From a virus, in the IMG/VR virus record IMGVR_UViG_3300044712_000368, positions 1 to 39,569 of that record: DNA of 39,569 nucleotides; one strand, given 5' to 3'. This document shows, one piece after another, positions 12,353 through 31,443 of this stretch. A program made the translations under genes and the position numbers. The notes beneath the pieces were generated by a model, which saw nothing but the letters and a program-made list of their open reading frames with translations, was not told where the DNA came from and did not search any database. The stretch's first letter is position 1. Each line of letters begins with the position of its first letter.

Positions 12353-12793
12353 ATGGCTGGCGAAAATGGTAACGGCAATGGCAATGGCAACGGCAATCAT
12401 GCCGCGCTAGTGCTTGAAGTTGTGCAAGGCAGACCAACGCTTTGGCGCGATGAGATGCTTGAAGAAATTGACCAGCTAGCGTCGCTTGGTTTCAAAAAGC
12501 ATGAGATTGCAAAATCCCTTGGAGTAAGCCGCGATTGTTTCATGGAGTGGCAGCGCATTCGTCCTGAAATTGCAGAAACTATTGACCGCGCTAAAATTAG
12601 AGGAGCAAAGGTTTGCGCCATGCGAATCATGAAAGCAGCTGAAGACCCTCGCTTCTGGACGGCGGCAGCGTGGTTCCTTGAGCGCACATTGCCAGAATCG
12701 TTTGGTCTGAAACAACACTTGCAAGTTGAACACACCAACGCAATCACAACCGCTGCGATTGAAGAAGCTGAAGCCAAACTGAAAATAATGTGA
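12353..12793 (+). CDS. terS: Terminase small subunit
   Basis: 146 residues from ATG 12353. An N-terminal low-complexity Gly-Asn repeat is followed by a helix-turn-helix (EEIDQLASLGFKKHEIAKSLGVSRDCFMEW), then central helices ending in DPRFWTAAAWFLERTLPESFG, typical of phage TerS proteins that recognise the packaging site. A longer frame from 12236 is possible but its first 39 residues do not look coding. The stop overlaps the TerL GTG (GTGA). The TerL partner and the conserved W-x-x-ER region make the call good. Confidence 0.85.
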   Translation: MAGENGNGNGNGNGNHAALVLEVVQGRPTLWRDEMLEEIDQLASLGFKKHEIAKSLGVSRDCFMEWQRIRPEIAETIDRAKIRGAKVCAMRIMKAAEDPRFWTAAAWFLERTLPESFGLKQHLQVEHTNAITTAAIEEAEAKLKIM

Positions 12794-14160
12794 GCTTGCT
12801 TTTGCCATACCAATCCGCCTGGGTGCGTGATAAATCACGTTTGAAGATTTGCGAGAAAGCGCGGCAGGTTGGCATGAGTTGGGCAGCAGCTTATTCAGTG
12901 GTGCGCGAAACGTGCAATGCCGAGGCTTTACTTGATACGCTTGTCAGTTCCCGAGATGAATCATTGGCCGCTGATTTCAAATCCAAGTGCAACGCATGGG
13001 CCGGTGTGCTTTCGGTGACAGTCAAAGACCTGGGCCTGCAAGTGATGGATGATAGCAAAGACATTTCAGCCTACGTCCTACACTTCCAAAACAACAAAAA
13101 GATTTTCGCGCTGTCAAGCAATCCAGACGCCCAAGCGGGCCGCGCTGCAAATCGCTTGCTTGACGAATTCGCATTGCACCCAAACCCGAAGCAACTTTAT
13201 GACATCGCATATCCCGGTATCCAATGGGGCGGAAGTCTCTCAATCATTTCAACCCACCGCGGTGCCGATAACTTTTTTAATCAGCTCATCGAGGAAATTA
13301 AGCATAAAGGAAATCCCAAAGGATTCAGCTTGCATCGTGTTACCTTGGGGGACGCACTTGATCAGGGGTTGCTTGCCAAACTTAAAACAAAGCTCGCCGA
13401 TAAACTCGATCACCCAGTCCACAATTGCAAAGACGACGCCGATTATTTCAACCTGATGCGCTCCGGTTGCTCTGATGAATCATCATTCATGCAGGAATAT
13501 ATGTGCGTACCGGAGAATGACGAGGATTCTTTCCTGCCTTATGAGCTTATCGAAACGTGCATCTACGAGCCAAACGTCAAATGGGAAACGGATTTAGCCG
13601 ATGCCAAGGGCCGTCTGTATCTTGGAGTTGACATCGGGCGAGTGAAGGATTTGACCTGCATCATTTGCGTTGAGGAAATTGGCGATGTGTTCTACCTGCG
13701 GAAGCTAATCGAGCTTTACAAGACTCCGTTTGCCGTGCAGGAATCAATCCTTTACCCGCTGCTCGCCCTTCCGCAGATGCGCCGTTGCTGCATTGACCAG
13801 ACCGGAATGGGAATGCAATTCGCGGAGCGGGCCGCGCATCGCTGGGGAGAATATCAAGTTGAAGGCGTGACGCTGACCAACCAGACCAAGCAAGACCTCG
13901 CTTATCCGCTCAAGGAAGCGTTCCAGAAAAAGACCATCCGCATTCCCGACCTGCTGAAGTTCAAAAACGATTTGCATTCGGTGAAGAAGGAAACGACCAG
14001 CGCGGGGAACATCCGCTTTGCTGGCAACTCAGACGATTCGCACGCCGACCGCTTCTGGGCGTTGGCGTTGGCGTTGCACGCTGGAAAGCGCATCAGTTCA
14101 ATCGGTTCAAGCTCATACACGCCAATGAAAGTAGGCTCCTATCAACACGCAAGATTTTAA
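12790..14160 (+). CDS. terL: Terminase large subunit (Mu gp28-like)
   Basis: 456 residues, GTG start. ATPase: LLPYQ at the N-terminus, variant Walker A EKARQVGMSW (22-31), Walker B RLLDEFAL (122-129), motif III region SIISTH (151-156). RNase-H-like nuclease: LGVDIGR (278-284, Asp281), CIDQTGMG (334-341, Asp336) and DSHADRFWALALAL (416-429, last Asp). This is the motor that packages DNA into the head. The sequence pattern, and a DUF935 portal next door, point to the Mu gp28 type. Length is at the short end for TerL but all active-site motifs are present. Confidence 0.94.
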   Translation: MSLLLPYQSAWVRDKSRLKICEKARQVGMSWAAAYSVVRETCNAEALLDTLVSSRDESLAADFKSKCNAWAGVLSVTVKDLGLQVMDDSKDISAYVLHFQNNKKIFALSSNPDAQAGRAANRLLDEFALHPNPKQLYDIAYPGIQWGGSLSIISTHRGADNFFNQLIEEIKHKGNPKGFSLHRVTLGDALDQGLLAKLKTKLADKLDHPVHNCKDDADYFNLMRSGCSDESSFMQEYMCVPENDEDSFLPYELIETCIYEPNVKWETDLADAKGRLYLGVDIGRVKDLTCIICVEEIGDVFYLRKLIELYKTPFAVQESILYPLLALPQMRRCCIDQTGMGMQFAERAAHRWGEYQVEGVTLTNQTKQDLAYPLKEAFQKKTIRIPDLLKFKNDLHSVKKETTSAGNIRFAGNSDDSHADRFWALALALHAGKRISSIGSSSYTPMKVGSYQHARF

Positions 14161-14173
14161 CAGAACAAAACAT

Positions 14174-14362
14174 ATGCCAGTTAAATATTTTGGAAGAAAA
14201 ATCACAACAGACGAGATTGTCATTAAACTGCAAACCACAAGCGAAGTGCTGAAAAACTCTTTTCCATCCGTTGCAAACGATTGTTTTCTTGCAAAAATGG
14301 AAATTGAAAGACTGGTTAAAGAAAACAAGCAACTCAAGGAGAACAATCCATGCCCAACCTAA
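14174..14362 (+). CDS. Small coiled-coil protein
   Basis: Sixty-two residues between TerL and portal, overlapping the portal start by 13 bases. A basic N-terminus is followed by a helix with heptads (KMEIERLVKENKQLKEN). More AT-rich than neighbours. The AAGGAG near its end serves the portal gene. Function unknown. Confidence 0.65.
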   Translation: MPVKYFGRKITTDEIVIKLQTTSEVLKNSFPSVANDCFLAKMEIERLVKENKQLKENNPCPT

Positions 14363-15753
14363 TCCAATCCATCCGCAACCTGTTCGTTCCGTCGCGCAAC
14401 ATCACGCTGCGTCAAGAGCCAACCCCGCTTTCGTCAACGGCAACCGCCACAACGATTCAGAACGCATTGCGAGCCGCCGAACAGGGCGACACGCGGCAGC
14501 TATTCACGCTTTACCGTGACATATTCGGCGGCCAAGGCCATGTCATGTCCGAACTGAACAAGCGAAAGATGGCCGTGCTTTCTGAGCAATGGAACGTGAT
14601 CCCGGTGGACAAGTCGAAACCGGACGATGTGAAAGCCGCTGAGTCATGCAAAGAGATGGTCAAGATAGCTGACGGCTGGATGAATTGCATGAACGTGCTG
14701 ATGGACGCCACGCTCTGGCCGGTTGTGGTTGGAGAAAAGATTTTCCGCCCGGTGAACAAAGGCGAAACTGATTTGCCATTGCGCTTCACATTTTCTTACC
14801 TACACCAAATCAATCCGCAGTTGCTTTGCTTCAATCCCGGTTGGGGCTATGGCGATGACGCGCCGATTGACCAATGGGAATCACAGGTGCGATTGTTCCC
14901 GGTGAATGATCGCGGGTTTACTTTCTTCTCGCTGGCCGATGCCAAGTTCCTGGAGCAAGACAGGCACATGGTTTATCGTGGTCACACTCAATCTGGCCGG
15001 GACTGCTGGGGCGGGCCGATGCGGGCAATCCTTGGCTGGTGGTTTCTTGCGGAGTGCGGGCGAGACTGGTTTGGAAGATTCATGGAACGCTACGGCTCGC
15101 CGTTCGTAGTGGGAAAGATTGACGCGAAGAATCCAACGGCGGTCACGTTCATGCAAACTGCCTTTGCTGAGGCAACCAAGATTGGCGGCATGGTGATTGA
15201 CCACGGGAGCGAGGTTCAACTTGTCAGCGCGGCCAGCGCGGCGAATGAGCAAGCTTACCAATCGTTCCTTGAAGTGTGCCACCGTGAGATTAGCAAAATC
15301 ATATTAGGTCAAACCCTTAGCGCGGACAGCCAGCCAACTGGCCTAGGTTCAAGCGTTGGGAAACTTCATTCCGATGTGCGCGAGGACATCAAAAAGTATG
15401 ACCGCCTGTGCTTGGGAAACGCGATTGAGCGGCAAATCTTCGCGCAGTTCCTTAAGCTAAACGCCATTCGCGGTCGCGTGCCGAAGATTGTTTGGGGCGG
15501 ATTGGAGGCGGAAGATTCGCAGGCCATGGGCAACCTGCTTGTGAGTTTGAACACGGCTGGATTGCAGCCAACTGATGACGCCCTTGAAGGCATCGGTGAA
15601 AAGATTGGCTTCCCGATTGAGCGCAAAGAAGCACCGGAGAAAGAAGTTCCGGATAAAATCATTGGAAAGGATGGCGTTATTATTCCGAATCCGGCGAAGG
15701 AAAAAGAAATGCCTGATACGGAAGATGACGCGGAAGAAGTTAAAACCGAATGA
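14350..15753 (+). CDS. Portal protein (Mu gp29-like, DUF935)
   Basis: 467 residues. DUF935 features: an N-terminal LYRDIFGGQGHVMSELNKRK, a helix with DGWMNCMNVLMDA, the stem region GGPMRAILGWWFLAECGRDWFGRFMERYGSPFVVGK, SKIILGQTLSADSQPTGLGSS and LHSDVREDIKKYD, as in Mu gp29 and relatives. It forms the dodecameric DNA gate at the head vertex. The last 60 residues are acidic/Lys-rich and probably disordered. AAGGAG precedes ATG 14350. Confidence 0.93.
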   Translation: MPNLIQSIRNLFVPSRNITLRQEPTPLSSTATATTIQNALRAAEQGDTRQLFTLYRDIFGGQGHVMSELNKRKMAVLSEQWNVIPVDKSKPDDVKAAESCKEMVKIADGWMNCMNVLMDATLWPVVVGEKIFRPVNKGETDLPLRFTFSYLHQINPQLLCFNPGWGYGDDAPIDQWESQVRLFPVNDRGFTFFSLADAKFLEQDRHMVYRGHTQSGRDCWGGPMRAILGWWFLAECGRDWFGRFMERYGSPFVVGKIDAKNPTAVTFMQTAFAEATKIGGMVIDHGSEVQLVSAASAANEQAYQSFLEVCHREISKIILGQTLSADSQPTGLGSSVGKLHSDVREDIKKYDRLCLGNAIERQIFAQFLKLNAIRGRVPKIVWGGLEAEDSQAMGNLLVSLNTAGLQPTDDALEGIGEKIGFPIERKEAPEKEVPDKIIGKDGVIIPNPAKEKEMPDTEDDAEEVKTE

Positions 15754-15938
15754 AAAACAACCGAAACGGATTTCCAGTTAAGCCTTGCCCGATGTGTAGA
15801 AGCACAAATATAACCATCGGAAACCTGTGGGGTGAAGCGGCTGTTGTAATGTGCCTTGGGCTAAAAGGAAAATGCGAACACGTTGGAGAGGTCTGCAAAA
15901 CAAAGTCACTGGCAATCAGAAAATGGAACGTGCGATAA
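15750..15938 (+). CDS. Lar-like restriction-alleviation zinc ribbon
   Basis: Sixty-two residues, ATGA overlap. KPCPMCRSTNITI at the N-terminus, two further Cys (MCLGLKGKC) and an ending AIRKWNVR match the Lar restriction-alleviation family, whose members have CPxC, a second Cys pair and a terminal AxxxWN-x-R helix. Lar of Rac prophage modifies type I restriction; many family members are untested. Position between portal and glycosyltransferase is unusual for it. Confidence 0.75.
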   Translation: MKNNRNGFPVKPCPMCRSTNITIGNLWGEAAVVMCLGLKGKCEHVGEVCKTKSLAIRKWNVR

Positions 15939-15939
15939 A

Positions 15940-16608
15940 ATGAACATTGCCTACACAATCGGCGTTGGTGCGTTCCGGCCAATGGCAGAACTGGCCGCAG
16001 AACAAATGCGCCGTCACACCGGATGGCGCGTTGAAATCCTTGGCGATGAACATTACCAAGGGATTGCGGAGCGCGATGTTTGCATGACGCTGGACATTGA
16101 AAGTGGCGTTTTTGGATTCACTGGCGACCGTGGATGCTACTGGCTGAAATATCACGGCTTTGATTTCTTTCCTGATGCCGAACGGTTGCTGTACTTTGAC
16201 GCCGATTTGCTATGCGTTAAAGATTGGATTGTGCCGGACGTTGGATTTGGCGTGGTGCAAGATTGGATGACTGAGCAAGTTAAAGCCGAGTGCCGAAACT
16301 TGAAGATTCATCCACTTCATTATTTCAATGCTGGGTTGATGATTATCCATCGTGACTTGGCCGCGATATTCAAAGACACGCTCGCTCTGGGCCCAACCGG
16401 GTTTTGGGTTGACCAAGGCGCGGTGAATTGCGCGGTTGCCAATTCTGGAATAACGGAAACTTTACTAGACCGTAAGTTCAACCGCCTGATAAACGAAGCG
16501 CATTACGGAGAGATTGAAAATTATCCCGATACGGTTAACTGGCATTTTTTCAACTGCTATGACCAAGTTGACGCGCGAATGAAAGTGATGGAGTCGCTGA
16601 TAAAATGA
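15940..16608 (+). CDS. Glycosyltransferase, GT-A fold (GT8-like)
   Basis: 222 residues from ATG 15940, two bases after the previous stop. Features: N-terminal strand MNIAYTIGVG, LLYFDADLLCVKDW (83-96) with the metal-binding DxD at 87/89, YFNAGLMIIH (128-137) and a DQGAVNCAV segment, the order found in GT8 and related galactosyl/glucosyltransferases. It should move a sugar from a nucleotide donor to an unknown acceptor. The location inside the head operon suggests a virion protein or host surface glycan as acceptor. The family call is good; substrate cannot be read from sequence. Confidence 0.82.
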   Translation: MNIAYTIGVGAFRPMAELAAEQMRRHTGWRVEILGDEHYQGIAERDVCMTLDIESGVFGFTGDRGCYWLKYHGFDFFPDAERLLYFDADLLCVKDWIVPDVGFGVVQDWMTEQVKAECRNLKIHPLHYFNAGLMIIHRDLAAIFKDTLALGPTGFWVDQGAVNCAVANSGITETLLDRKFNRLINEAHYGEIENYPDTVNWHFFNCYDQVDARMKVMESLIK

Positions 16609-17755: not shown

Positions 17756-19186
17756 TTGTTTTCGCTTTACGTTTCACTCGTGGCAAAGAGTGCAAGTGCA
17801 GTTGAGTTTGAAAAGATAGTCGCTTTCAAAGCGATTAAAAACTCTGCGCTTGATTCAAAGACACTTCCGACGCGGCTCAAGATTCTCAACTGGGGAGTCA
17901 ATCAAACGGTAATCGGGCCGGTCACGGTTGACGCTACATCCGCTTCGATGATTCCGCTTTCGCAGGACTCCAAAGGCTTCAAAGAAATCGCGATTGATTT
18001 TGAGCATAACACTGTTCCAGGCTCTCTGGAATACAACCGCACGAATGAACCTCGCCCGGTTGCCGGTTACGGCACGCCTGAAATCGTAACCGATGACGGA
18101 ATTTACCTTGAAAACATCCGCTGGACGCCCGAAGGCGAGCGGATGGCATTGAATTTTTCTGATCTATCGCCAGCCCTGATAACCGAACCCAACACGGGAG
18201 CGGTCACATTTATTCATAGCGTTGCGCTCTGCCGGAACGGGGCAGTTGACGGGCTGACGTTTCATTCTGCGACGCTGAAAGACGCGGAGCTTATCGCGCT
18301 CGCGGCCAAAAAGGTTGTAATGACCAAAGGCAGCGGCCAGCGAGTCGAAAAAGGCGATGAAGTTGTGCCACTCGAAAAGAGCGAGCAAGCCAAAGAGGAC
18401 GGGATGGCCAATTACAAGGCTTTCCCGGCTTGGGAATTGGTGCGAGTAGAGCCAAGCGAAGTCCCTCGCGGTTCAAGCGGGAAACCCAATGACCTTTCAT
18501 GGCCTGACCGCTGGCGCATGGCCGGAGGAAGGCTATTTAGCGGACGGATGATTGCCAACAAGCTGGACGAAATCTGGTCAAAGCTTGGCGATTCAGACGA
18601 ATTTGATGACGCGGTTGACAGCGACGTTCCGCCGTTTGCGTACAATTCCGGATATGGCTGGATGGAAGTGGACGCCGAAACCTGCAAGGAGCTTGGAGTT
18701 CGGCGCACCATTCGCGGAAAACAATCTGACAAGAAAATGCCGCCGGTAAGCCTGCGGAATTTTTCTGCGGAAGAAACAAACAACACAGGAGAACAAAATA
18801 TGGCTGAAAATAACACGCAGGCGATTCCCGACGTGAAGGCGGAAATTGCTAACGCGGTTGCTCCGTTGGTGGAGCAGTTGAAAACCTTCTCGGCTGAAAT
18901 CGCCAGTCTTAAATCCGCGCAGGCCGCTTCGGTTGCCGCCGGGGAAAAGATTGAGCGCGAAAACATCATCGCCCAGGCCACGAAGGACGGGAAAATCATC
19001 CCGCTTTCCGCCGAGTCGCTGAACGCCCTGAGCGTTCCCGCGCTCAAGGAAATGGTTGGCAACCTGAAAGCCGGTGCCGTGACACTCACCGCGTCTAGTG
19101 GCGCGACGGCTGGCAATGCCAATATGTCCGCGATTGACCGCGTGAAAGCGGCCAATGCCCAGGCGTACGCTCAAATCCGCAAGTAA
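17756..19186 (+). CDS. Mu I-like head maturation protease with internal scaffold
   Basis: 476 residues. The N-terminal ~200 match Mu I-type protease/scaffold proteins (IDFEHNTVPGS, PRPVAGYGTPEIV, YLENIRWTPEGERM, FSDLSPALI, HSVALCRNGAVDGL). Residues about 222-330 are an inserted domain (FPAWELVRVEP, WPDRWRMAGGRLFS). Residues 349-476 form a separate helical scaffold region that has its own start at 18800. The annotated start is TTG 17756; GTG 17780 is an alternative and neither has a strong ribosome site. The protein should process head proteins and guide capsid assembly; the capsid gene follows. Confidence 0.88.
   Translation: MFSLYVSLVAKSASAVEFEKIVAFKAIKNSALDSKTLPTRLKILNWGVNQTVIGPVTVDATSASMIPLSQDSKGFKEIAIDFEHNTVPGSLEYNRTNEPRPVAGYGTPEIVTDDGIYLENIRWTPEGERMALNFSDLSPALITEPNTGAVTFIHSVALCRNGAVDGLTFHSATLKDAELIALAAKKVVMTKGSGQRVEKGDEVVPLEKSEQAKEDGMANYKAFPAWELVRVEPSEVPRGSSGKPNDLSWPDRWRMAGGRLFSGRMIANKLDEIWSKLGDSDEFDDAVDSDVPPFAYNSGYGWMEVDAETCKELGVRRTIRGKQSDKKMPPVSLRNFSAEETNNTGEQNMAENNTQAIPDVKAEIANAVAPLVEQLKTFSAEIASLKSAQAASVAAGEKIERENIIAQATKDGKIIPLSAESLNALSVPALKEMVGNLKAGAVTLTASSGATAGNANMSAIDRVKAANAQAYAQIRK
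18800..19186 (+). CDS. Internal in-frame scaffold protein (Mu gpZ-like)
   Basis: Within the protease gene, ATG 18800 in the same frame is preceded by GGAG at a normal distance, in the same context used by real genes here. It would yield a 128-residue protein starting MAENNTQAI, rich in Ala/Glu helices (AEIANAVAPLVEQLKTF) and ending at the shared stop. Mu makes its scaffold gpZ from an internal start in gene I, so a nested scaffold is expected. This is inference from ribosome site and family precedent. Confidence 0.7.
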   Translation: MAENNTQAIPDVKAEIANAVAPLVEQLKTFSAEIASLKSAQAASVAAGEKIERENIIAQATKDGKIIPLSAESLNALSVPALKEMVGNLKAGAVTLTASSGATAGNANMSAIDRVKAANAQAYAQIRK

Positions 19187-19201: not shown

Positions 19202-20140
19202 ATGGCTGTCTTGAACTTAGTTGACATTTTGGCCCGCACGAACGCTGACCCGATCAAAGGTTTGGTTGAGGACGTTCTGACTATGGCTCCGGAATTCATG
19301 GTTGTCCCGGCAACCCCTCGCGCAGGCACTTCCTACCGTGTCACTCGCCGCACGGGTTATCCGTCCGGTGGTTTTCGCGCCGTGAACGATGCGAACGCTC
19401 CGGGGAAATCCACCTACGTCCAGAGCATCAAGGAAATGTTTTTCCTCGATTACCCGCTGCAAATTGATGAGGCGATTGTCCAGGCCGACGACGGTTCGGC
19501 GGGCGACCTGCTGACCCAGGAACAGCGTGGGGCTTTCGAGTCCATGATGATGGACGTTGGCTCGCAGTTCTACTACGGGACTGACTCTGACGCGGCTGGT
19601 TTCGCTGGCCTGAAATCGCAATGCGTTTACTCGCTGGCGGCTGGCAGCACTACCAACACGACTAGCGCGTATCTGGTATGGCTTGACGAGCGCGGAGTTC
19701 GCTTCGACGTTGGCCGCAGCGGCAACCTGTCCTTGGCCCCGTGGTCCACTCAGGTGGTTTCCGTTAACAGCGGAAATCAGCGGGCGTATGTGTCGAACCT
19801 TTCCGGTTACATCGGGCTTTCCGTTTCATCGGAATACTCGGTTTACCGCGTCAAGGGCATTGACATGACCAGCAAGCTGACCGACGCGCTCGGTCTGACC
19901 CTGCTGGCGCAAGTTCCGATGGCTCGCCGCAATAACCTGCGCTGGTTCATGAACAGGACGGCTCACACTTCGCTGCAACTTTCCCGCAGCGTTACCACTT
20001 ATGTTGGCGCAGGCGCGGATGGTTCACCGGCGTCAGCTCCGGCCCCGACTACGCTCGGCGGTGTGCCTATCACTGTGACGGATTCGCTGGTGGACACTGA
20101 AACCGCCGTGAATACATCTGGCCCTGGCCTTGGTGAATAA
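19202..20140 (+). CDS. Major capsid protein
   Basis: 312 residues directly after protease/scaffold, with AAAGGAA before ATG 19202. GLVEDVL, RRTGYPSGGFRAVNDANAPGKS (an E-loop-like stretch), LDYPLQIDEAIVQAD, ESMMMDVGSQFYYGT and AGFAGLKSQ are a pattern of HK97-fold coat proteins annotated in many tailed phages. The C-terminus has strands and the P-domain-like end. Position, size and motifs agree. It forms the icosahedral shell. Confidence 0.9.
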   Translation: MAVLNLVDILARTNADPIKGLVEDVLTMAPEFMVVPATPRAGTSYRVTRRTGYPSGGFRAVNDANAPGKSTYVQSIKEMFFLDYPLQIDEAIVQADDGSAGDLLTQEQRGAFESMMMDVGSQFYYGTDSDAAGFAGLKSQCVYSLAAGSTTNTTSAYLVWLDERGVRFDVGRSGNLSLAPWSTQVVSVNSGNQRAYVSNLSGYIGLSVSSEYSVYRVKGIDMTSKLTDALGLTLLAQVPMARRNNLRWFMNRTAHTSLQLSRSVTTYVGAGADGSPASAPAPTTLGGVPITVTDSLVDTETAVNTSGPGLGE

Positions 20141-20695: not shown

Positions 20696-21163
20696 ATGAA
20701 AAACTTTTTTGCTTTCCTGCTTTGTTCTTTCACTTTGATTGCGGCGGATTCAACCGTCAGCACCACGGCCCCGCAGACCACTGACGGCGGTTATGAGTTG
20801 GCTATCCGCCAAGCCTACACCATCCACAACATCAAGCAGAAGATTTCCGATTACACTTTGGGGACTACGGTTTCCAACGTGCTATCCAAGCCAACCGGAC
20901 TCGGCACGAATTACTGGTCAACTCAGGACGCGCTTTATCACACGGTCAACATCATCACAACGAATACCACTACGAATGTAACGGTTACGCTTTCTCGTTC
21001 GCTTGATGCTGTGAACTGGACTCCTTGGAGTACCAATACAATCACGGCTGACACGGTGACAGAAGCAACATGCACAGGGGCTTTTATGTATTTGCACGCG
21101 CGCATATCGCACGCAGGAGCAACCAACGGTTCGGTAAATGTTCTGTATTACGGTAAACGGTAA
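20696..21163 (+). CDS. Exported beta-rich protein
   Basis: 155 residues. The first ~17 (MKNFFAFLLCSFTLIAA) are a Sec signal peptide with cleavage near IAA/D. The mature part is Thr/Asn-rich and beta (TTNTTTNVTVTLSRSLD), like a small adhesin-type domain. Signal peptides are rare for virion proteins. It lies between the capsid terminator and a methyltransferase-glycosyltransferase gene. It might be a virion or host-surface protein; unknown. Confidence 0.7.
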   Translation: MKNFFAFLLCSFTLIAADSTVSTTAPQTTDGGYELAIRQAYTIHNIKQKISDYTLGTTVSNVLSKPTGLGTNYWSTQDALYHTVNIITTNTTTNVTVTLSRSLDAVNWTPWSTNTITADTVTEATCTGAFMYLHARISHAGATNGSVNVLYYGKR

Positions 21164-21187
21164 AAAACAAACAATGGAAAATGACAC

Positions 21188-22504
21188 ATGAGCGCACAAA
21201 ACCTGTACCAAGATTGGACGTTGCCGCCAGCTAGTGAGCGCGACGTGAAAGAAATCACAGACGGCGATTACAATTTGCCGCTGACGTTTGAACCTCAAAA
21301 CGTGCTGGACATCGGGGCGCACGTCGGCCTGTTCGCAGGCTGGGCAAGGCACACATGGCCGGGATGCAAAGTCACCAGCTATGAGCCGTGGCAAGAGAAC
21401 TGCGACTACTTCAAAAAGAATCTTTCGAATGATACGAATGTCACTTTGATTGAGGAAGCGTGTTTCCCGTCTGAATCCGTCGAGATTCACGAGGGGCTTA
21501 ACAGCTTCACGAATACTATTTTTCCGAAGGAACTTGGATACACCAAGCCTAACAGCGAACGCACTATCAAAGCCAGCATCCCGCAAGGCAAATTCGATTT
21601 CATCAAGCTTGATTGCGAGGGAGCGGAGGCCGACATACTGCCAAATCTTGACCTGAGCGAAACCAGAGCAATCGTGGTCGAGTGCCACAATGAGAAGCTG
21701 GCTTTCCGCGTTGACAAATACCTGAAATCATTGGGATTTGAACGCCTGATGAAAAAATATCATGGATACATGGACGTTCAGTTGTTGAAATTCGCACGCC
21801 CAGGCTCAAGCAATCCAATCCCGCAAAAACTCATGGTGTGCATCCCGGTTTATGGAGATGTATGCGGACACACTAGCCAATGCCTGATGCGGCTGATTCA
21901 AAATCCGCCAGTTGCGTTCATGTTGAACTATTGTTTGGGCGATTCCCTTGTTTCACGCGCCAGGAACACGCTTACAAACCAGTTTATGCGGTCTGACGCT
22001 ACGGATTTGCTGTTTATTGACTCCGATTTGATCTTTTCACCGGAGCAAATCCTGCGAATTGTCAACCATCCGGACGATGTTGTGGGCGGTTTATACCCGA
22101 AAAAGCAGGACAAAGAGAGCGTGGAATGGGTTTTGAACACGCACAAGGAGCTTCCCGAAAAGCGTGCGGACGGTTGCCAGCAAGTTGCGTACATCGGAAC
22201 CGGGTTTATCCGCGTGAAAAGGCACGTTTTCGAGGCCATGATTGAGCATTACGGAGATGAAATCACCTACAAAGATGACTGTTCCGAGTCAATCATGCAC
22301 GATTTATGGCCGGTTGGGACGTATCGCTATGAAGATGGCAGTCGCCGCTACCTTTCTGAGGATTGGTTCTTCTGCCAACGGTGGATGGACATGGGTGGAA
22401 AGATTTGGGCCGATACTAAAGTCGTACTGAAGCACGTTGGAACGGCAATCTTCCCGCTGAAATGCCAGGAGAAAAAGCTAATGGAAGATATGCCAAAGGA
22501 ATAA
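21188..22504 (+). CDS. FkbM-type methyltransferase fused to glycosyltransferase
   Basis: 438 residues, two enzymes in one chain. Residues ~30-205 are an FkbM methyltransferase: VLDIGAHVGLFAGW (39-52, SAM site), YEPWQENC (65-72), IKLDCEGAEADIL (139-151). Residues ~212-438 are a GT-A glycosyltransferase: LMVCIPVYGDVC (215-226), SRARNTL (256-262), FIDSDLIFSP (276-285, DxD-like metal site), then LSEDWFFCQRW and KVVLKHVGTAIFP. FkbM enzymes O-methylate sugars. So the pair could add a sugar and cap it by methylation. The place among head and fibre genes suggests a virion or surface glycan target, which is inference. Confidence 0.88.
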   Translation: MSAQNLYQDWTLPPASERDVKEITDGDYNLPLTFEPQNVLDIGAHVGLFAGWARHTWPGCKVTSYEPWQENCDYFKKNLSNDTNVTLIEEACFPSESVEIHEGLNSFTNTIFPKELGYTKPNSERTIKASIPQGKFDFIKLDCEGAEADILPNLDLSETRAIVVECHNEKLAFRVDKYLKSLGFERLMKKYHGYMDVQLLKFARPGSSNPIPQKLMVCIPVYGDVCGHTSQCLMRLIQNPPVAFMLNYCLGDSLVSRARNTLTNQFMRSDATDLLFIDSDLIFSPEQILRIVNHPDDVVGGLYPKKQDKESVEWVLNTHKELPEKRADGCQQVAYIGTGFIRVKRHVFEAMIEHYGDEITYKDDCSESIMHDLWPVGTYRYEDGSRRYLSEDWFFCQRWMDMGGKIWADTKVVLKHVGTAIFPLKCQEKKLMEDMPKE

Positions 22505-22505
22505 T

Positions 22506-22919
22506 ATGCCGTACATCACGCAATCAGATATTGAAGTCCTAGTTCCGGCCCCGATGCTCATTGACGCGCTGGACGATAGCAAGTCAGGTGCGCTTGATGA
22601 AACTTTGCTGGCTTCACTGATTGCGGCGGCTGACTCGCAGGTGGATTCCTACTTGTGCGGACTGTTCACCGTGCCTTTTACAACTGTTCCGGCGGTTGCA
22701 AAGGAAGCATCTTTGGTGTTCGCCTGCGAGTCGCTTTATAAACGCCGACTTGCTCCGGATGAAAAGAATCCGTTTGCCGACCGGGCGCGGATTTGGCGCG
22801 AGCGTTTGCAGATGATTGGCAATGGCGAGTTGCCGTTGTCCACCGCGCAAGGGAGCTATGCGAATATTGGCGCGTCCATCCTTATCACGGCTAGCATTGA
22901 CGACACGTTAAGAGCATGA
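22506..22919 (+). CDS. Head-tail connector (Mu gp36-like, DUF1320)
   Basis: 137 residues beginning MPYITQSDIEVLV, with LIAAADSQVDSYLCGLFTVPF in the centre and ACESLYKRRL before a helical end, as in DUF1320/Mu gp36 adaptor proteins that attach to the portal. It starts one base after the previous stop and ends in an ATGA overlap with the tail-terminator-like gene. Confidence 0.85.
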   Translation: MPYITQSDIEVLVPAPMLIDALDDSKSGALDETLLASLIAAADSQVDSYLCGLFTVPFTTVPAVAKEASLVFACESLYKRRLAPDEKNPFADRARIWRERLQMIGNGELPLSTAQGSYANIGASILITASIDDTLRA

Positions 22920-23386
22920 CCATAGCCCAACAACTTAAAGCGGTACGGGACGCGGCCAGTATGACTGACTGGCAGGCTTCCGTTAGTGCTGACGTATCCA
23001 TTGCCAATGACATAGCGCAGGCGTTGACGTATTTGCAGAACAAGCCAGGAGTTCCAAAGGCGGTTATCGTTTACGACGGCGAAGAAAAGCGTGGTGAGCA
23101 TGAGGAGGGCGCAAGGGTTGACCGCAATTTCTCAGTGATTGTCACGCGCAGCGCGGGTTTGGACATTGAAGGAAATTACGTCGAGGACGATAACAGCGGA
23201 GGGTTGCCGCTTTATGATTTGGTTGAGGGATGCCGGGATGCTGTGAGAGGCGTTCGGTTTGAAGCTGACGTGACGGAAGTGTATCCGAATTTCAAAGGCA
23301 TATCGCGCTTCGATGTTGGCGAAGCTTTATTTGATGCGTACAAGATTGAGTTTTCAATCGGTACGCAACTAGACTCAATACTATGA
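22916..23386 (+). CDS. Tail terminator/completion-like protein
   Basis: 156 residues, ATGA overlap. Alpha-beta pattern with an N-terminal helix, strands (AVIVYDG, NFSVIVTRS) and late FSIGTQLDS, typical of small neck or tail-terminator proteins (Mu gp37/DUF1834-like). Position after the gp36-like connector is the main support. Ends in an ATGA overlap with the giant fibre-like gene. Confidence 0.65.
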   Translation: MTIAQQLKAVRDAASMTDWQASVSADVSIANDIAQALTYLQNKPGVPKAVIVYDGEEKRGEHEEGARVDRNFSVIVTRSAGLDIEGNYVEDDNSGGLPLYDLVEGCRDAVRGVRFEADVTEVYPNFKGISRFDVGEALFDAYKIEFSIGTQLDSIL

Positions 23387-26300
23387 GATACTTTTTTCTT
23401 TTACTGGTTTTGGTTTTGGCAAGCTGCGTTTCCAAAGCGGCTAATGTCACTTTCACTTTGCAGGACTTTACAACCACGGCGGCGGCATCGCGCAAGGTTT
23501 TGGTTACTCCGCTTTCGTTTCCTGAAGGTGGAGTTGCTGTAATTGTTAGTGCTGACAAGAAGCTTTACACTGCTTCTACTAACGGGGCTTTCACGGTCAC
23601 AAACATGGTTGGTGGTATTTACCAATGCGAATTGCAAGCACCGCCAAGCGTGACAAAGTTTTGGATTGATGTACCGACCAATGCAAGCTCGTACAATGCC
23701 AGCGCATTAATGGTTGCTGCCACCAACACAGTTCCAAGTGGAACTATGGCAGTAACTCTAACAACCGCTGATGGCAGATATATCAAGATGCTAGACGGTT
23801 ACGCTACAAACCTTGTTGTGTCTAACCTTACCGCAATCGGTACTGTTAATATTCCAAGCGGTTCGGGAGGAACAGTGACTAGCGTTGGGCTTACAAGCAG
23901 CAGCGCGGGCGTTACGATTACAGGATCGCCTATTATTGGTGCTGGAAATATTGGAATTGAAATTGCAGGAACAGGTGGAGGAAACACTTTCAACACCACA
24001 CAATTTGGAACCAACGGAAGTGGAGCTGTTACGATTAAAGATGGAGCGTTTACCACAAATCAGACTGCGTACACTCCTTACTTGCTTTACACCAACGGAA
24101 CTACGATTGAGCCTCGCAACACTGGCGTATGGGCATACAACGATGTCGTGGATTATTGGAAATTTGATTCGACAAACTGGACGTTTTTTCAGTCGGTTTC
24201 TGGGCCGACACCAACCCAGCCAACCAACCTTGTGACGAAGGCCTATGCGGATGCGCTGCCTTTTCAGCCAACCAATGCGAACTTGACCTCGTGGGCATCC
24301 ACAACCCCGACCAACGGTTCAACCAGCCAATACCTGCGCGGAGACGGGACATGGCAAGTCCCGCCGGGTGGAGGCAGTTCACCAACCAACACCTTCGACT
24401 CAAATTTCACTTTGGTTGACGGCACCAACGTGCATCTGGCGGTTGGTCTGGTGACGACGAATCAAGTGTTGAATACGCCAACTAGCACAAATGCGATACT
24501 TCGCGGGACTGGTGATGGATCGCGCACCGAGGGGCCATTCCGATTCTACGGCCCGGTTTATTGGCATCCTACGATGATTTATCCTGACGATCCATTTTCA
24601 TGGGAAGGTGCTTATGGGATGATTACCAATGATGCCAACGGGTATCATTTGAACATGCAGATGATTACTGTCACTGGAAATGAGCTTGATGGGCCGGGAC
24701 TGAGAGTTTTGCAGGGGGCGGTGTTTGGAAGCACGATTAATGTTTCTGGAACAACCAACCTGAATGATTGGGCTAGGCTTGGGACGAATGTTCCGATTCC
24801 TTGGACTGGCGTAGGTTACGGTCTTTCCAGCAACACTGGCTCAGTTCTGGTGGATAGCAACACCATCGCAGATAAAAACTGGGTTATGTCTATCGTTGCA
24901 GTTGGTGGAATTTATTACGCTTCCACCAATGCTTGCACAAATGGATTTGATGCTAATTCATTCTGGTTTGTGACTAACACCATTCCGGCCTATGGCTCTC
25001 GCGTTTATACTGGAGTAACAAATAATCAGTACATTGGCTCTCAGGTTACATCTCAACAATTCGCAAATGTGCAATCACCGATTACGGTTAATGCATATAT
25101 CAGTTATCCTTCCGGTGCTGGACGCGCTCTTTCGGTAAAGCCTGAAATATACTTCTCTGCTGACCTAACAAACATATTCGGAGATTACGATGCTGCGGCT
25201 CAGACAATTACCGCAGGAACAACCAATCTTTACCAGTGGACGGTTTCATTTCCTGACTGGGTTAGCACAAATGTTTATGTCATTCGCAGGTTCAAAGTAA
25301 CCAGTCAAAATGCTAACCCCGATGTGACGTTTCACCTAGGCACAAATTTCGCAAGCCATATTGACCTGCGGACAACCACCGCAACAGTTGGCGGTGGAAC
25401 CTTCGCCACCATCCAATCCAACGGCGTGGACATTGTTACCTCAGCGGTGAAGCTGAACGTGGTAAATCCCTCAACCCTGGTTTCCAATGCCGGCGGTGTC
25501 GCAACTTTAACATTGCCGTCTGGCGGCGGCCTAACTGCTTCCGACACCAACTTCGCGCACATCACCGCAACCAACGGAGTCCACATCCTCACCAACGGCG
25601 CGATTGTGCTGGATCAAGTCGGGTATGGCAGTGCAACGGATTACGCTCGCGGGATTATCAGTAACACGCCGAGCGGACTCAATCTGGGAAGTTGGAGAGC
25701 TGGTTCTGCGACGACGAATTCTATGCCGGTTTCAATCTGGACTGATAAAACTCAGCGGGTTGTAATATCACCGCTTGGAACAACGGTGTTCAAGTCAAGC
25801 TCGGGAACCGATACAATCACAATCAATCCAGACAATGCTACTCCTCTTATCGTATCTGGCACAGCGCAAGCCAGCACGATCAGTTCAGTCGGGAATTTGT
25901 CACTTGGCAACGGGTGGCAGGGAGTGAAGTCGAGTGCTGGGACTTCTGCTGGCTATTTGTATCTTACAGCAAATTCAATCGAGGGACTTAGGGTTAATCC
26001 TTCTGGACAAGTTTTATTTGGCACAAACAAAGTAATAATTGACCCGGCGCAAGGCACGAATATGTTTACCGGGATAACAACTATAACTGGTACAAATATT
26101 ATAGAAGGAGAATTGCAACTGCGCTCGAATCCTCAGATTGGCTATCTATCAACAAACGCGCCAATAAGCAATGGAACAAATCTAATTTACTATCTCAACT
26201 GGGCATCTCAGAGACATGTAATTAGCAATCACGTTTATTACGTTCACTCAACGAACGGGCCGACCGATACCAATTATGCTTCATTCACCACTGCCACGTT

Positions 26301-26460
26301 CATCAACAACAGCGGCTCGGATTATGTGCTGACTCTCCCGGCTGGTTGGACGAATACTGCCAGCAGTCCGGCGTCACCGCTGACGATTACGAACGGCACA
26401 ATCCGCAAGATGCAGACTGAGGCAATCAGCAACACGAACGTTATTTATGACATTCGCTAA
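23383..26460 (+). CDS. Giant fibre-like protein with export signal
   Basis: 1025 residues. The first ~20 (MRYFFLLLVLVLASCVSKAA) are an export signal, with a lipobox LAS-C (Cys15) or alternatively signal peptidase I cleavage after SKAA. Residues ~21-110 resemble a fibre N-terminal domain (VLVTPL..., YQCELQAPP). Then come tail-fibre-style segments: TVTSVGLTSSSAGVTITGSP (167-186), LRGDGTWQVPPGG (about 323-335), GTNLYQWTV, and Asn/Thr-rich strands, ending with LPAGWTN. Fibre proteins bind host receptors, but a lipoprotein/secretion signal is unexpected on one. It could be displayed on the host cell. Starts in an ATGA overlap. Confidence 0.82.
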   Translation: MRYFFLLLVLVLASCVSKAANVTFTLQDFTTTAAASRKVLVTPLSFPEGGVAVIVSADKKLYTASTNGAFTVTNMVGGIYQCELQAPPSVTKFWIDVPTNASSYNASALMVAATNTVPSGTMAVTLTTADGRYIKMLDGYATNLVVSNLTAIGTVNIPSGSGGTVTSVGLTSSSAGVTITGSPIIGAGNIGIEIAGTGGGNTFNTTQFGTNGSGAVTIKDGAFTTNQTAYTPYLLYTNGTTIEPRNTGVWAYNDVVDYWKFDSTNWTFFQSVSGPTPTQPTNLVTKAYADALPFQPTNANLTSWASTTPTNGSTSQYLRGDGTWQVPPGGGSSPTNTFDSNFTLVDGTNVHLAVGLVTTNQVLNTPTSTNAILRGTGDGSRTEGPFRFYGPVYWHPTMIYPDDPFSWEGAYGMITNDANGYHLNMQMITVTGNELDGPGLRVLQGAVFGSTINVSGTTNLNDWARLGTNVPIPWTGVGYGLSSNTGSVLVDSNTIADKNWVMSIVAVGGIYYASTNACTNGFDANSFWFVTNTIPAYGSRVYTGVTNNQYIGSQVTSQQFANVQSPITVNAYISYPSGAGRALSVKPEIYFSADLTNIFGDYDAAAQTITAGTTNLYQWTVSFPDWVSTNVYVIRRFKVTSQNANPDVTFHLGTNFASHIDLRTTTATVGGGTFATIQSNGVDIVTSAVKLNVVNPSTLVSNAGGVATLTLPSGGGLTASDTNFAHITATNGVHILTNGAIVLDQVGYGSATDYARGIISNTPSGLNLGSWRAGSATTNSMPVSIWTDKTQRVVISPLGTTVFKSSSGTDTITINPDNATPLIVSGTAQASTISSVGNLSLGNGWQGVKSSAGTSAGYLYLTANSIEGLRVNPSGQVLFGTNKVIIDPAQGTNMFTGITTITGTNIIEGELQLRSNPQIGYLSTNAPISNGTNLIYYLNWASQRHVISNHVYYVHSTNGPTDTNYASFTTATFINNSGSDYVLTLPAGWTNTASSPASPLTITNGTIRKMQTEAISNTNVIYDIR

Positions 26461-27226
26461 GTACATTCTTCTTTTCTTTGCGTTTACCTGCAACGCGCAG
26501 TTCCTGCCGATGATTGGCCACACGGCTGGCGCAACGAATGTCACGAAGATTGGCGTGCTGCCGGAAGTGTATTTGACGAATGGGCTTTTTGCTGTGTGGC
26601 ATTTGGACAATACAAACGACAGTCGTTGCGTTGATAGTTGGGGAACGAATCACCTTTACTTCCGATCCGCAGCAAATGTTTCACTGACAAATGGAGTGAT
26701 AAGCAATGCTGGCTACGTTAGTGCGGCTGACAATGCTGGTGAACTGACAAACAATGCTGGGGGGATGACCTTTACGACATTCAGCATTTCAATGTGGTAT
26801 TCGCCAAAGATCAAAGGTGTCCGCGGTTCTGTATATTGCGGGACAAACAGTACCACGCGATCACGAACTTCACAATGCTCTTGGGGGATTGCTTCAAGCG
26901 GAACCGCTATTAGGTTTGCAATAACTAACTCTCTTATTGACCTAAGCTCTACGACATTTAATGTTGATGAATTCACGCACTGGGTGTTTGTGTATTCTAA
27001 TGACGTTGGCAGGGTGTGGTGCTATAAAAACGGTGCCTTGGCGCAGACCGCAACCGCTGGCCCAATAGCAACAAGTATAGAACCGACATCTTTTTCGATT
27101 TATGGCCAGGATGATAGCGGGGCAAAAGATGAAGTCGCAATCTGGTCTCGTGGGCTTACCGAGCAGGAGGCGGCTTACCTCTACCAATACCGAAACTGGC
27201 GTGATTACCCAAAACAATACCGTTAA
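26447..27226 (+). CDS. Exported LamG/concanavalin-like lectin protein
   Basis: 259 residues overlapping the fibre gene by 14 bases. The first ~17 residues (MTFAKYILLFFAFTCNA) form a signal peptide. A short linker with IGVLPEVY leads to a LamG-like jelly roll: LFAVWHLDNTNDS, FTTFSISMWYSPK, THWVFVYSNDVGRVWCYKNG, and the closing DDSGAKDEVAIWSRGLTEQEAAYLYQYRNW. Such domains bind glycans. With the fibre protein it may make an exported adhesin pair. Cys residues are several and may form disulfides in the periplasm. Confidence 0.82.
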   Translation: MTFAKYILLFFAFTCNAQFLPMIGHTAGATNVTKIGVLPEVYLTNGLFAVWHLDNTNDSRCVDSWGTNHLYFRSAANVSLTNGVISNAGYVSAADNAGELTNNAGGMTFTTFSISMWYSPKIKGVRGSVYCGTNSTTRSRTSQCSWGIASSGTAIRFAITNSLIDLSSTTFNVDEFTHWVFVYSNDVGRVWCYKNGALAQTATAGPIATSIEPTSFSIYGQDDSGAKDEVAIWSRGLTEQEAAYLYQYRNWRDYPKQYR

Positions 27227-27230
27227 AAAC

Positions 27231-27614
27231 ATGAACATCAAAATTGCAATCATTGCGGACGGGACGGAGATCGGCACGCTGGATTTCAGCGAGGAAACTC
27301 TGGTTGACCTGATCTGGGTTGCCCGCACCAATCGCGGCGAGAATCTGGCCAGCGAAGCCACGGCAACTTTGGGCGTGGAAGATGTTTTGGCGCATCCCAA
27401 ACAGCAATGGCTTAACTCCGGTCTGAACTACCGCGAGCAGCGTAAAGCTGCGTGCGATGCGTTCCTGCGCTCCAAGGTTTATGCTGGAATGACCGAGGCT
27501 GAAATCATCGCGGCCAGGGAACAGGCAAACGCCGCGATTGCCCGTTTCCTGCGGCTTGAAGGGGACGCACCAGTTCCGGTTGATCCGCCCGCTGAACCTC
27601 CCTCCGAACCATAA
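27231..27614 (+). CDS. Hypothetical protein
   Basis: 127 residues from ATG 27231, four bases after the LamG stop. Begins MNIKIAIIADGTEIG (beta) and has helices with EEIIAAREQ-like spacing and a Pro-rich acidic tail (PVPVDPPAEPPSEP). No family recognised. It may help attachment or folding of the fibre-like proteins; that is speculative. Confidence 0.65.
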   Translation: MNIKIAIIADGTEIGTLDFSEETLVDLIWVARTNRGENLASEATATLGVEDVLAHPKQQWLNSGLNYREQRKAACDAFLRSKVYAGMTEAEIIAAREQANAAIARFLRLEGDAPVPVDPPAEPPSEP

Positions 27615-27708
27615 ATCATGAACCAACTAAAAGACTGGACGCATGGGTAAATATAGATGAACAACAGATTGTGGAAACGTGAAACTTGGTAAAACAGAAT
27701 GGGAAAAT

Positions 27709-28008
27709 ATGGCTGAACAACAAACGAAACTTAACGCAAACAGTTACATCTCGCTTGGGGTAATGTTGGTTATCATCGGGGCGGCATTTCAACTTAGCAC
27801 AAAACTTGCCCGCATTGAAACCGACCTTTCAACCATTCGCTTTGAGATGTCAACAAAACTTGACGCATTTAATGGCCGCATGGGCGACCGCTGGACGGCA
27901 ACCATGCAAGGTGTATGGGCGCGTGAAGTTCAGGCATTGAATCAAAATTTCAAGACGCCGGTTGTTGAGGACATTCAGCGCAGGTTCCCGCCGTCTGGAA
28001 TAAAATAA
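27709..28008 (+). CDS. Membrane protein, possible holin/lysis protein
   Basis: 99 residues from ATG 27709; GTG 27679 would add ten. One membrane span (about residues 11-32, SYISLGVMLVIIGAAFQL) is followed by a coiled coil (KLARIETDLSTIRFEM) and a C-terminal DRWTATMQGVW segment. This layout is found in small phage membrane proteins next to lysis genes. It precedes a holin-like gene. Confidence 0.6.
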   Translation: MAEQQTKLNANSYISLGVMLVIIGAAFQLSTKLARIETDLSTIRFEMSTKLDAFNGRMGDRWTATMQGVWAREVQALNQNFKTPVVEDIQRRFPPSGIK

Positions 28009-28018
28009 ATAAACTAAT

Positions 28019-28219
28019 ATGGAAAAACTCATCGAATACGCAACCAATCGGCTCTCGGAACAATCCACTTGGCGCGGGATTATCCTTCTTCTGACTGCGC
28101 TGGGCGTTGTAATATCACCGGAACAAGCCGAGAAGATTATCGCCGCCGGCATTGCCATCGTTGGCGCGATTAACGTGTTCCGCAAACAACCAAACTCACC
28201 TGACGCGAATCCAAAATGA
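28019..28219 (+). CDS. Holin
   Basis: Sixty-six residues. Hydrophobic segments at about 18-33 and 40-54 with charged ends and STWRGIILLLTALGVVISPEQAEKI..AGIAIVGAINVF, the pattern of a small phage holin family. It would form membrane lesions that release lysis enzymes. A lipoprotein follows at an ATGA overlap. No endolysin was identified beside it. Confidence 0.78.
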   Translation: MEKLIEYATNRLSEQSTWRGIILLLTALGVVISPEQAEKIIAAGIAIVGAINVFRKQPNSPDANPK

Positions 28220-28566
28220 AAACCCTGGTAACACTAACACTGGCCCTATGCGCGTTGTGCTTGGGCTGCAGAACCACAAACCCATCTGGCAAAATCATCG
28301 CCAGCTCAGCCGTGACGGTTGACGCCGCAATGAAAGGTTGGTCGGTGTGGGTGCATGACGGCAAGGCTACCGAAGCCCAAGAGGTCATGGTGCGCGATGC
28401 GTTTATCAAGTACAAGTCTATCGAAACGGCAGCGCGGAAAGCCTATGCAGCGGCCTACGCTGCCAAGGACGATTCAAGCATGGCGCAGGTAGTCGCCGCG
28501 TTGCAAGCCGCTGTCGCTGATTTGAACCTAATAGTAATCACGTTCAAAACAGGAGGAACTTTATGA
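28216..28566 (+). CDS. Small lipoprotein, spanin-like candidate
   Basis: 116 residues, ATGA overlap with the holin. The N-terminal signal ends with a lipobox-like LGC (Cys18). The rest is helical, Ala-rich (YAAAYAAKDDSSMAQVVAALQAAV). An outer-membrane lipoprotein beside a holin is typical of outer-membrane spanins in Gram-negative phages, but no partner inner-membrane spanin is certain. The stop overlaps the next ATG. Confidence 0.65.
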   Translation: MKTLVTLTLALCALCLGCRTTNPSGKIIASSAVTVDAAMKGWSVWVHDGKATEAQEVMVRDAFIKYKSIETAARKAYAAAYAAKDDSSMAQVVAALQAAVADLNLIVITFKTGGTL

Positions 28567-29811: not shown

Positions 29812-29975
29812 CGCGCCAGGAAGTGCTTTACAGCCTTCCTATAGCGCAGGGGTGGGCTTTATATGCTTGGGCGGTGGAAAACGAGCCTTGGGGCAACGTG
29901 GAGCGAAAGACGCCGGGTTATATCGCGCAAGAGATAGACAGACGAAAGGAAATTTATGTTGGCCGGTGCGATTGA
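29697..29975 (+). CDS. Tail assembly chaperone, -1 frameshift extension
   Basis: In the frame one base back from the chaperone, the sequence is open from 29697 (after a TAA at 29694) to TGA 29973-29975. From about 29730 the product looks like a real domain (AEDGLGWWLDYLCRLVRTYG, RQEVLYSLPIAQGW, YIAQEIDRRKE), with no ATG start. Switching would occur near the T5 run 29727-29731 (TCT TTT TCA read as TTT TTC) or at GGAAAAG 29706-29712. The fused protein would be about 242 residues. This is the gpG/gpGT arrangement conserved in long-tailed phages. Confidence 0.7.
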   Translation: MRRGKERWRVFFTIAQGAEDGLGWWLDYLCRLVRTYGLTRQEVLYSLPIAQGWALYAWAVENEPWGNVERKTPGYIAQEIDRRKEIYVGRCD

Positions 29976-31443
29976 AATGACGTTGGGTTTGCAGGCGAAC
30001 CAATTCCTTCAGGCATTGGGCATGGCAAACTCATCGGTGCTGTCCCTGTTTGGGACTACGCAGCTTTTGCAATCCGGCTTTCAAAAGGTTTGGGGCGCGA
30101 TTGAAAAGGGAGGGGCGTTGCTTGACTTGTCGAATCGCACCGGGGATGCGGTTGGTTCGCTGTACCAGTTGCAGCAGGCTTTTACGGTTGCCGGCGTCGG
30201 GGCTGAATCGGTTGGAAGCGTCATTCGCAAATTCAACATGGCTCTGGCCGGTTCAAGCGAGGAGGGAGAAAACGTCTCAGCCGCTTTCAAAAAGCTTGGC
30301 CTAGACCCGCAGGCGTTGTCAAAGATGGGAAGTTCTGAGGCATTGGTAAAAACCATTGATGCGCTTTCAAAGTTTGACAAAATTTCACAGACATCGCTTT
30401 CAAACACGATTTTCTCCCGTCAAGGCGGAGCGATAATGAACCAGATTGCGCGGGATGCTGAAGGATTCAAAAAGACAATCCAAGAGACTGCTGAAAGCGC
30501 GAAGGTTTGGGAAAGAGTTGCGCTTGCTTTCGATGAAATTGGTGACACGGTGGAACTTATAAAGGGTAAGATTTCTACCATGTGGGCTGGAATAGCAGAG
30601 GGAGCAATCCCAATGTTCAACCGTGTTTTATCTTACATCAATTCAATTGACTGGGTTGGTATTGGCCGAAATATTGGAAAGTATTTAATGGCATTTGAAG
30701 GTGCTGCAAAATCAGGTCAACTTGGAGAACTGATTGAGCTTTCGCTAATTGTTGCTTTCGAGAACGCTTTCATGTTTGCCGCAAGGCAGGCTTTCGTGCT
30801 TGGTGAAATTCTTAAAGCGGTTGCAAGCGACATGTTCAAGCCATTGGTTGCAAACACGGGAGCACTTGCTATAAACGAAATCGGGATGCTTGAAGCCAAG
30901 GCTAAGCGTTCATCATTTTTGCAGCAGGCAGAATATGACATCAGCCGTGATCCAAATTTATCTGACCGTGCAAAGGCTTTTCAAATGGCCAAGATGCGCG
31001 AGCAGGCTGATATTGACTTCAGGAACGCCACAAGTGGAAACAACGCAACCGCTAGACAGCTTTTAAAAGAGCGTGAAGATGCGATAAAAAACGGGATTAA
31101 ATCCGTAATTGATACAGCTAAAAGCGCAATTGGCGTTTCTGGTGAAATGTTTCCCATGGGCGGGGAAAACACAAACAAGCTAAAGTCACTTGTCAATATG
31201 CTTTCGGTTTTCGACTCATCAATTAGCAGCGGAAAACAAACGCCAATAGCTGACATGTTTGGCGCAGGTGGTTCAATTGGTACACCTCAAGTTTCTGCGC
31301 TAGAAAAAATTGGTCTTATATTCGGAGGTGGTGGAACAGTGGATTATACCAAAGACACAGCAAAAAATACAAAGGAAACTGCAATGTGGATTCGCAAGAC
31401 TCATGACCTAATGCAAGTCCGTGATTACAGCGGACACGTTTAA
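29956..31443 (+). CDS. Tape measure protein
   Basis: 495 residues from ATG 29956 (AAAGGAAA upstream), overlapping the frameshift extension. Helical and Gly/Ala-rich, with LGLQANQFLQALGMAN near the N-terminus, GDAVGSLYQLQQAFTVAGV and IRKFNMAL, the classic tape-measure N-terminal core, and a long hydrophobic centre with membrane-like stretches (IELSLIVAFENAFMFAARQAF). At about 0.15 nm per residue it predicts a tail near 75 nm, short for a siphovirus. Confidence 0.87.
   Translation: MLAGAIEMTLGLQANQFLQALGMANSSVLSLFGTTQLLQSGFQKVWGAIEKGGALLDLSNRTGDAVGSLYQLQQAFTVAGVGAESVGSVIRKFNMALAGSSEEGENVSAAFKKLGLDPQALSKMGSSEALVKTIDALSKFDKISQTSLSNTIFSRQGGAIMNQIARDAEGFKKTIQETAESAKVWERVALAFDEIGDTVELIKGKISTMWAGIAEGAIPMFNRVLSYINSIDWVGIGRNIGKYLMAFEGAAKSGQLGELIELSLIVAFENAFMFAARQAFVLGEILKAVASDMFKPLVANTGALAINEIGMLEAKAKRSSFLQQAEYDISRDPNLSDRAKAFQMAKMREQADIDFRNATSGNNATARQLLKEREDAIKNGIKSVIDTAKSAIGVSGEMFPMGGENTNKLKSLVNMLSVFDSSISSGKQTPIADMFGAGGSIGTPQVSALEKIGLIFGGGGTVDYTKDTAKNTKETAMWIRKTHDLMQVRDYSGHV

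Follow-up and report, generated by a model that had tools for sequence, protein, structure and literature searches.

The window analysed here, a stretch of 39,569 nucleotides (positions 1 to 39,569 of IMG/VR virus record IMGVR_UViG_3300044712_000368), is the record of a Mu/B3-like siphovirus, with TerL, portal, major capsid and gp36 genes that are homologous to and collinear with those of this group. TerL (12790–14160) is about 50% identical to the TerL of Pseudomonas phage B3 and its relatives. Behind it lie the portal (14350–15753), a second glycosyltransferase-like gene between portal and protease (15883–16608; GT8, E 6.8e-5, just under the cut-off), the protease (17756–19186) and, on the forward strand, the major capsid protein (19202–20140; phrog_212, E 4.5e-21), a Mu gp36-like head-tail adaptor (22506–22919; PF07030, E 1.3e-13; phrog_195) and the tape measure protein (29956–31443; phrog_9483, E 4.3e-9). 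The capsid and tape measure genes served as anchors in the comparisons. The order portal, protease, capsid, gp36 adaptor, tape measure is Mu-like; no transposase A or B was recognised among the window genes scanned, and ERF and YqaJ recombination genes are present. Phage B3 shares TerL, gp36, portal and gene order with the window but has no fibre insert between the connector and the tail tube, its fibre genes lying after the tape measure.

The closest named capsid to that of the window is from Akkermansia phage Chantilly. Of the genomic relatives found, the nearest is L010, a prophage in a Verrucomicrobiota metagenome-assembled genome, whose glycosyltransferase is 57% and whose capsid is 53% identical. 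For these two reasons a Verrucomicrobiota host is likely, though not proven, for the window phage. The related locus L002 has portal, capsid, methyltransferase-glycosyltransferase and fibre slot in common with the window, but the B3-type TerL profile does not match the large gene 5' of its portal (8123–9736), a hint that the packaging module was swapped.

Signal-bearing genes between capsid and tape measure

Four forward-strand genes had been singled out by the first-pass annotation as starting with export signals, and their positions and lengths are exactly as it gave them: 155 residues (20696–21163), 1025 residues (23383–26460), 259 residues (26447–27226) and 116 residues (28216–28566). All signal calls are rule-based, requiring a basic n-region, a hydrophobic h-region and small residues at −3 and −1; the rule set accepts six known exported proteins of E. 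coli and refuses LacI. The proteins of 155, 1025 and 259 residues meet this Sec signal rule. The 116-residue protein does not, its lipobox (CLGC, with Cys at −3, against the rule [LVI][ASTVI][GAS]C) being the sole failure. None of the other forward-strand genes of the window is rule-positive at its first start codon, and 3.3% of all window ATGs followed by 50 open codons pass the rule. Between the major capsid gene and the tape measure, 3 of 14 coding sequences are rule-positive, compared with 0 of 91 in the same interval of 11 named phages (Fisher p 0.002). Named phages were taken as controls because a control search of another class, over 274 genomes, yielded no more than two TerL matches. 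The results support the proposal that fibre- and lectin-like proteins within a structural module carry export signals and that this is unusual, and the trait recurs in relatives (see below).

The 155-residue protein (N-terminus MKNFFAFLLCSFTLIAADS) matches no sequence family, and its AF2 model (pLDDT 40) was discarded. Its position is like that of small signal-bearing proteins behind the capsid gene in the related loci L081, L112, L094, L090 and L005. The 259-residue protein begins MTFAKYILLFFAFTCNA/QFLPM (a slash marks predicted cleavage, here CNA/QF) and is a LamG/concanavalin-like lectin, as had been supposed: it matches PF13385 (Laminin_G_3) with an E value of 2.4e-10 and 41.2 bits against a cut-off of 27.6. 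The whole protein has no match among named phages. Its gene overlaps that of the 1025-residue protein by 14 bp.

Two small proteins with one transmembrane segment each (27709–28219, forward strand, starts at 27709 and 28019) occupy what is inferred to be a holin/spanin-like position. The 66-residue one matches phrog_8494 (E 8.9e-6), and the other resembles an Rz-like spanin at E 0.18 only. The 116-residue probable lipoprotein (MKTLVTLTLALCALCLGC) is encoded directly behind them. Spanin and lysis lipoproteins of the Rz1 type fit this gene and its small membrane neighbours, and do not fit the genes of 155, 1025 and 259 residues; the 116-residue gene is probably a separate, ordinary lysis-cassette lipoprotein.

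Between the 155-residue gene and the adaptor lies an FkbM-type methyltransferase fused to a GT2-like glycosyltransferase (21188–22504, forward strand). This gene, which the first-pass annotation had combined with the signal-bearing proteins into a module for possibly glycosylated adhesins, is real (PF05050, E 1.1e-11; phrog_1574, E 4.9e-27) and is conserved in L002 and, as two genes, in L010. The module was not borne out: the rule scan shows the gene without an export signal, genomes from many phyla contain relatives of its glycosyltransferase half, and it has no match in the signal-bearing loci L081, L090, L094, L112 and L205. It is probably a neighbour that lies outside the export trait.

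The 1025-residue protein and its homologues

The fibre-type protein of 1025 residues consists of a predicted signal peptide, a putative β-sandwich N-domain and a long Thr/Asn-rich fibre-like part. Its start overlaps by 4 bp a 156-residue gene in gp37-like position (22916–23386, forward strand). The N-terminus reads MRYFFLLLVLVLASCVSKA/ANVTF, with the signal peptide encoded at 23383–23439 (forward strand) and cleavage by signal peptidase I predicted at SKA/ANVTF. The description 'fibre-type repeats' is only loosely right: there is one YLRGDGTW motif and no long tandem array of DNA repeats. No match was found for this protein among fibre and spike families, nor for the whole protein among named phages, and exact-peptide scans of viral contigs found none for it or for the glycosyltransferase protein; its N-domain also stands at the head of a PHROG tail spike in L010. 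An AF2 model of the N-domain is weak (pLDDT 51) and places a β-sandwich behind the signal helix. Foldseek gave weak CnaB-like and phage fibre matches to this model, none with E below 0.001.

In L010, soon after the glycosyltransferase, a 1015-residue protein carries a signal peptide and an N-domain that align together with those of the window protein at 35% identity. The body behind this domain is a pectate-lyase β-helix of tail-spike type (PF12708, 1.7e-12; PHROG tail spike, 1e-7); the whole protein has no match among named phages. The C-termini behind the N-domain, a fibre in the window and a β-helix in L010, thus appear to be exchanged in the manner of receptor-binding proteins. When 388 Verrucomicrobiota genomes were searched with a two-sequence N-domain profile, the only strong match was L010, within the prophage. 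Viral contigs anchored on the glycosyltransferase or the major capsid protein then gave more. The further homologues are L154 (1095 residues), L167 (565 residues), L138 (ended by the contig end) and L002, which is short and the weakest of the six aligned proteins (23% identity). L140 is a weaker homologue. Segments in the N-terminal regions encoded at 10097–12204 of L140 (SAPGGERAGVR, SMLNVECS, FDVRCS) resemble translated dispersed repeats, and such repeats may be a source of signal-peptide coding sequence.

The first-pass annotation had proposed a search for conserved signals in homologues, and all five (L010, L154, L167, L138 and L002) are signal-bearing. The signal peptides are unrelated to one another, and predicted cleavage falls at one shared residue at the start of the mature domain: SKA/ANVTF in the window, AWG/VTVRF in L010, AFS/ADVFF in L154, ATA/ADVFF in L167, ADA/TNIQI in L138 and LGA/TPVLF in L002. 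Behind this column the six mature domains align with V or I at +3, F or I at +5 and L or M at +7. The lipobox-like LASC that had been noted is present in the window protein, five residues before the predicted cleavage, but is not conserved, the five homologues having no lipobox. Because the cleavage column is shared and the homologues have no lipobox, processing by signal peptidase I is preferred, with LASC probably either an incidental motif or one peculiar to the window phage.

Signal-bearing fibres, spikes and lectins in other loci

Fibre-type proteins with signals are also found in further loci. In L090, from a Verrucomicrobiota genome, a signal-bearing protein of 657 residues matches Tail Collar (PF07484, 2.3e-19) and the PHROG tail collar fibre (1.6e-28), and the ATG of its gene overlaps the upstream stop codon. 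L081 encodes a collagen-type fibre of 655 residues with a signal (PHROG tail fibre, 1.4e-22), and signals are likewise carried by a 492-residue fibre-like protein, a 129-residue protein directly after the capsid gene and a 164-residue protein. Behind the capsid, a small protein with a signal is common to L094 and L112 (E 2.8e-25), and L090 has a more distant homologue of it (E 2.5e-4). On the reverse strand of L094 (12047–12904, script coordinates) a 285-residue lipoprotein with caspase-like SHGG and DTCNSG motifs adjoins the signal-bearing fibres of this Verrucomicrobiota prophage. Outside the Verrucomicrobiota set, Sinorhizobium phage StopSmel (L122, 5792–6283) encodes, between its protease and capsid genes, a hypothetical protein of 163 residues whose N-terminus makes a good signal peptide, cleaved as predicted at MFKKFAFGVAVAVALSASAYA/QES. 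The gene starts given for the related loci come from a simple script.

L205 (11357–15095) repeats the order of the window, with a small protein, a spike and a lectin that all have signal-like starts. The 187-residue protein contains a fibre-connector motif; its match to a PHROG tail-fibre connector begins at profile position 4. The 807-residue β-helix spike starts MKRLFLFLILPFLMSAQ, its signal being judged by eye where the rule script was negative. The 252-residue lectin, an analogue of the 259-residue window protein, matches the virion structural protein phrog_10356 (E 6.4e-16). A homologue of the 187-residue protein from a Bradyrhizobium phage begins MAQQVVNVGAVANDGTGDALRTAF, near the mature start of the L205 protein, and the extra 26–28 residues in L205 are therefore read as a signal. 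Judged by alignment, no other pair shows as clearly one phage domain in both a signal-bearing and a signal-free form, and the compact three-gene set of connector-like protein, spike and lectin is a good candidate locus for experiments.

The signal trait thus appears to recur in Mu/B3-like siphoviruses of Verrucomicrobiota, represented by prophages and by viral contigs without host assignment. Within 11 kb downstream of the capsid gene, a rule-positive ATG start is present in 22 of 79 capsid-anchored viral contigs, an upper bound that includes several evident false positives. The Verrucomicrobiota Mu-like prophages L082, L087, L088 and L111 have a large signal-free fibre in the same slot. Signal-positive phages are scattered over the TerL tree and do not form one clade; a single origin of the trait was rejected, as the tree requires five changes, at least three of them forced. 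Homology between the BppU-like N-domains of signal-bearing (L081, L090, L094) and signal-free (L082, L087, L088) proteins found no support, profile comparison giving a probability of 9%, and L205 is the sole case in which such a comparison supports homology. The cultured lytic verrucophage P8625 was reported without signal peptides (PMC4642752).

Probable export and the possible role of the signal-bearing proteins

In domain type (PHROG tail spike, tail collar fibre, T4 gp9-like connector), in the modular N-domain with swapped C-termini and in their place in a late structural operon, these proteins are like the fibres and spikes of tailed phages. They are unlike them in the signal peptide that precedes the domain, which none of the 91 control coding sequences has. 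To our knowledge, the textbook picture is of tailed phages put together in the cytoplasm, from fibres that carry no export signal. The open literature library searched yielded no paper about signal peptides on such fibres, which does not in itself prove absence.

The 1025- and 259-residue genes are taken to belong to the late operon because of their overlaps of 4 and 14 bp and of similar overlaps in relatives; a promoter scan found sites no more numerous than in shuffled sequence. The preferred reading, to which we assign a probability of about 0.6, is that the genes of 155, 1025 and 259 residues are late fibre and lectin genes of the phage itself, with cleavable Sec signals and a receptor-binding role after export. 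Export as such is judged very probable. The fibre and lectin proteins would be translated late in infection, cross the inner membrane via Sec and be cut by signal peptidase I at the predicted sites. The mature proteins would then remain periplasmic or sit on the outer membrane until lysis, when they would bind emerging virions and serve as their receptor-binding proteins. We know of no established route by which a periplasmic fibre joins a tailed virion.

That the exported fibres join the virion rather than stay on the envelope is judged slightly the better of the two outcomes. From the 3' side of the tape measure to host DNA, the prophages L010, L081, L090 and L112 have at most one larger, hub-like gene and small genes, and no other fibre was recognised there. 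As the remainder is hub-like or small, the signal-bearing proteins are the only recognised spike or fibre candidates in these four. This and the swapped C-termini of spike and fibre are the reasons for which a virion role is favoured over one on the envelope alone.

The strongest competitor, though a distinctly less probable one, is that the fibres and lectin, once exported, are retained in the periplasm or at the outer membrane for the benefit of the infected cell or lysogen, either masking the receptor against re-adsorption or superinfection or acting as adhesins. Phage-encoded envelope lipoproteins for superinfection exclusion, such as Llp of T5, are known, and they too are exported to the envelope; they are small, however, compared with the fibres and spikes of 500–1100 residues described here. 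The export signals themselves suit this alternative, LASC with Val at +2 could lipidate the 1025-residue protein, and the receptor of the host itself could be a ligand of the lectin and spike domains. Against it, the lipobox is not conserved, the fibre proteins lack both a C-terminal anchor and a further membrane segment, the overlaps with structural genes argue for late and not lysogenic expression, and the four prophages would be left with no receptor-binding protein.

It is improbable that the hydrophobic N-termini are uncleaved segments of virion proteins, acting for example in oligomerisation or in membrane insertion at infection. Certain tail and ejection proteins of phages are known to have hydrophobic segments, and the 657-residue protein of L090 has a long hydrophobic stretch, but the basic n-region, short h-region, −3/−1 site and fixed distance to the mature domain in six proteins argue for signal peptides, and the Bradyrhizobium phage homologue of the L205 protein is without the segment. 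Thr/Asn-rich LamG proteins are common in Verrucomicrobiota hosts, and secreted host proteins could have been captured as morons, signals included; this is very unlikely given the slot between connector and tail genes conserved in several phages, the overlapping gene starts, the spike, collar and fibre domains, and the single strong N-domain match in 388 genomes, which lies inside a prophage. Chance or start-site artefacts, for which the rule background and a downstream Met22 in the 259-residue gene might speak, are scarcely credible beside the recurrence of the trait, the fixed cleavage column, the signal-free controls and the next Met of the 1025-residue gene only at residue 75.

On the preferred reading of exported receptor-binding proteins, virion parts that are normally joined inside the cell seem to be first sent out of the cytoplasm in the window phage and a set of its relatives. 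More tentatively, a group of tailed phages may export receptor-binding fibres and spikes via host Sec and finish virion assembly beyond the cytoplasm, when the cell lyses or later. Recurrent fibres with cleavable signals would mean either a periplasmic or post-lysis step of assembly or a new use of fibres on the surface of the infected cell, and both could be tested with one induced prophage. Signal-bearing fibres would also provide a concrete marker for the phages of Verrucomicrobiota, few of which have been cultured.
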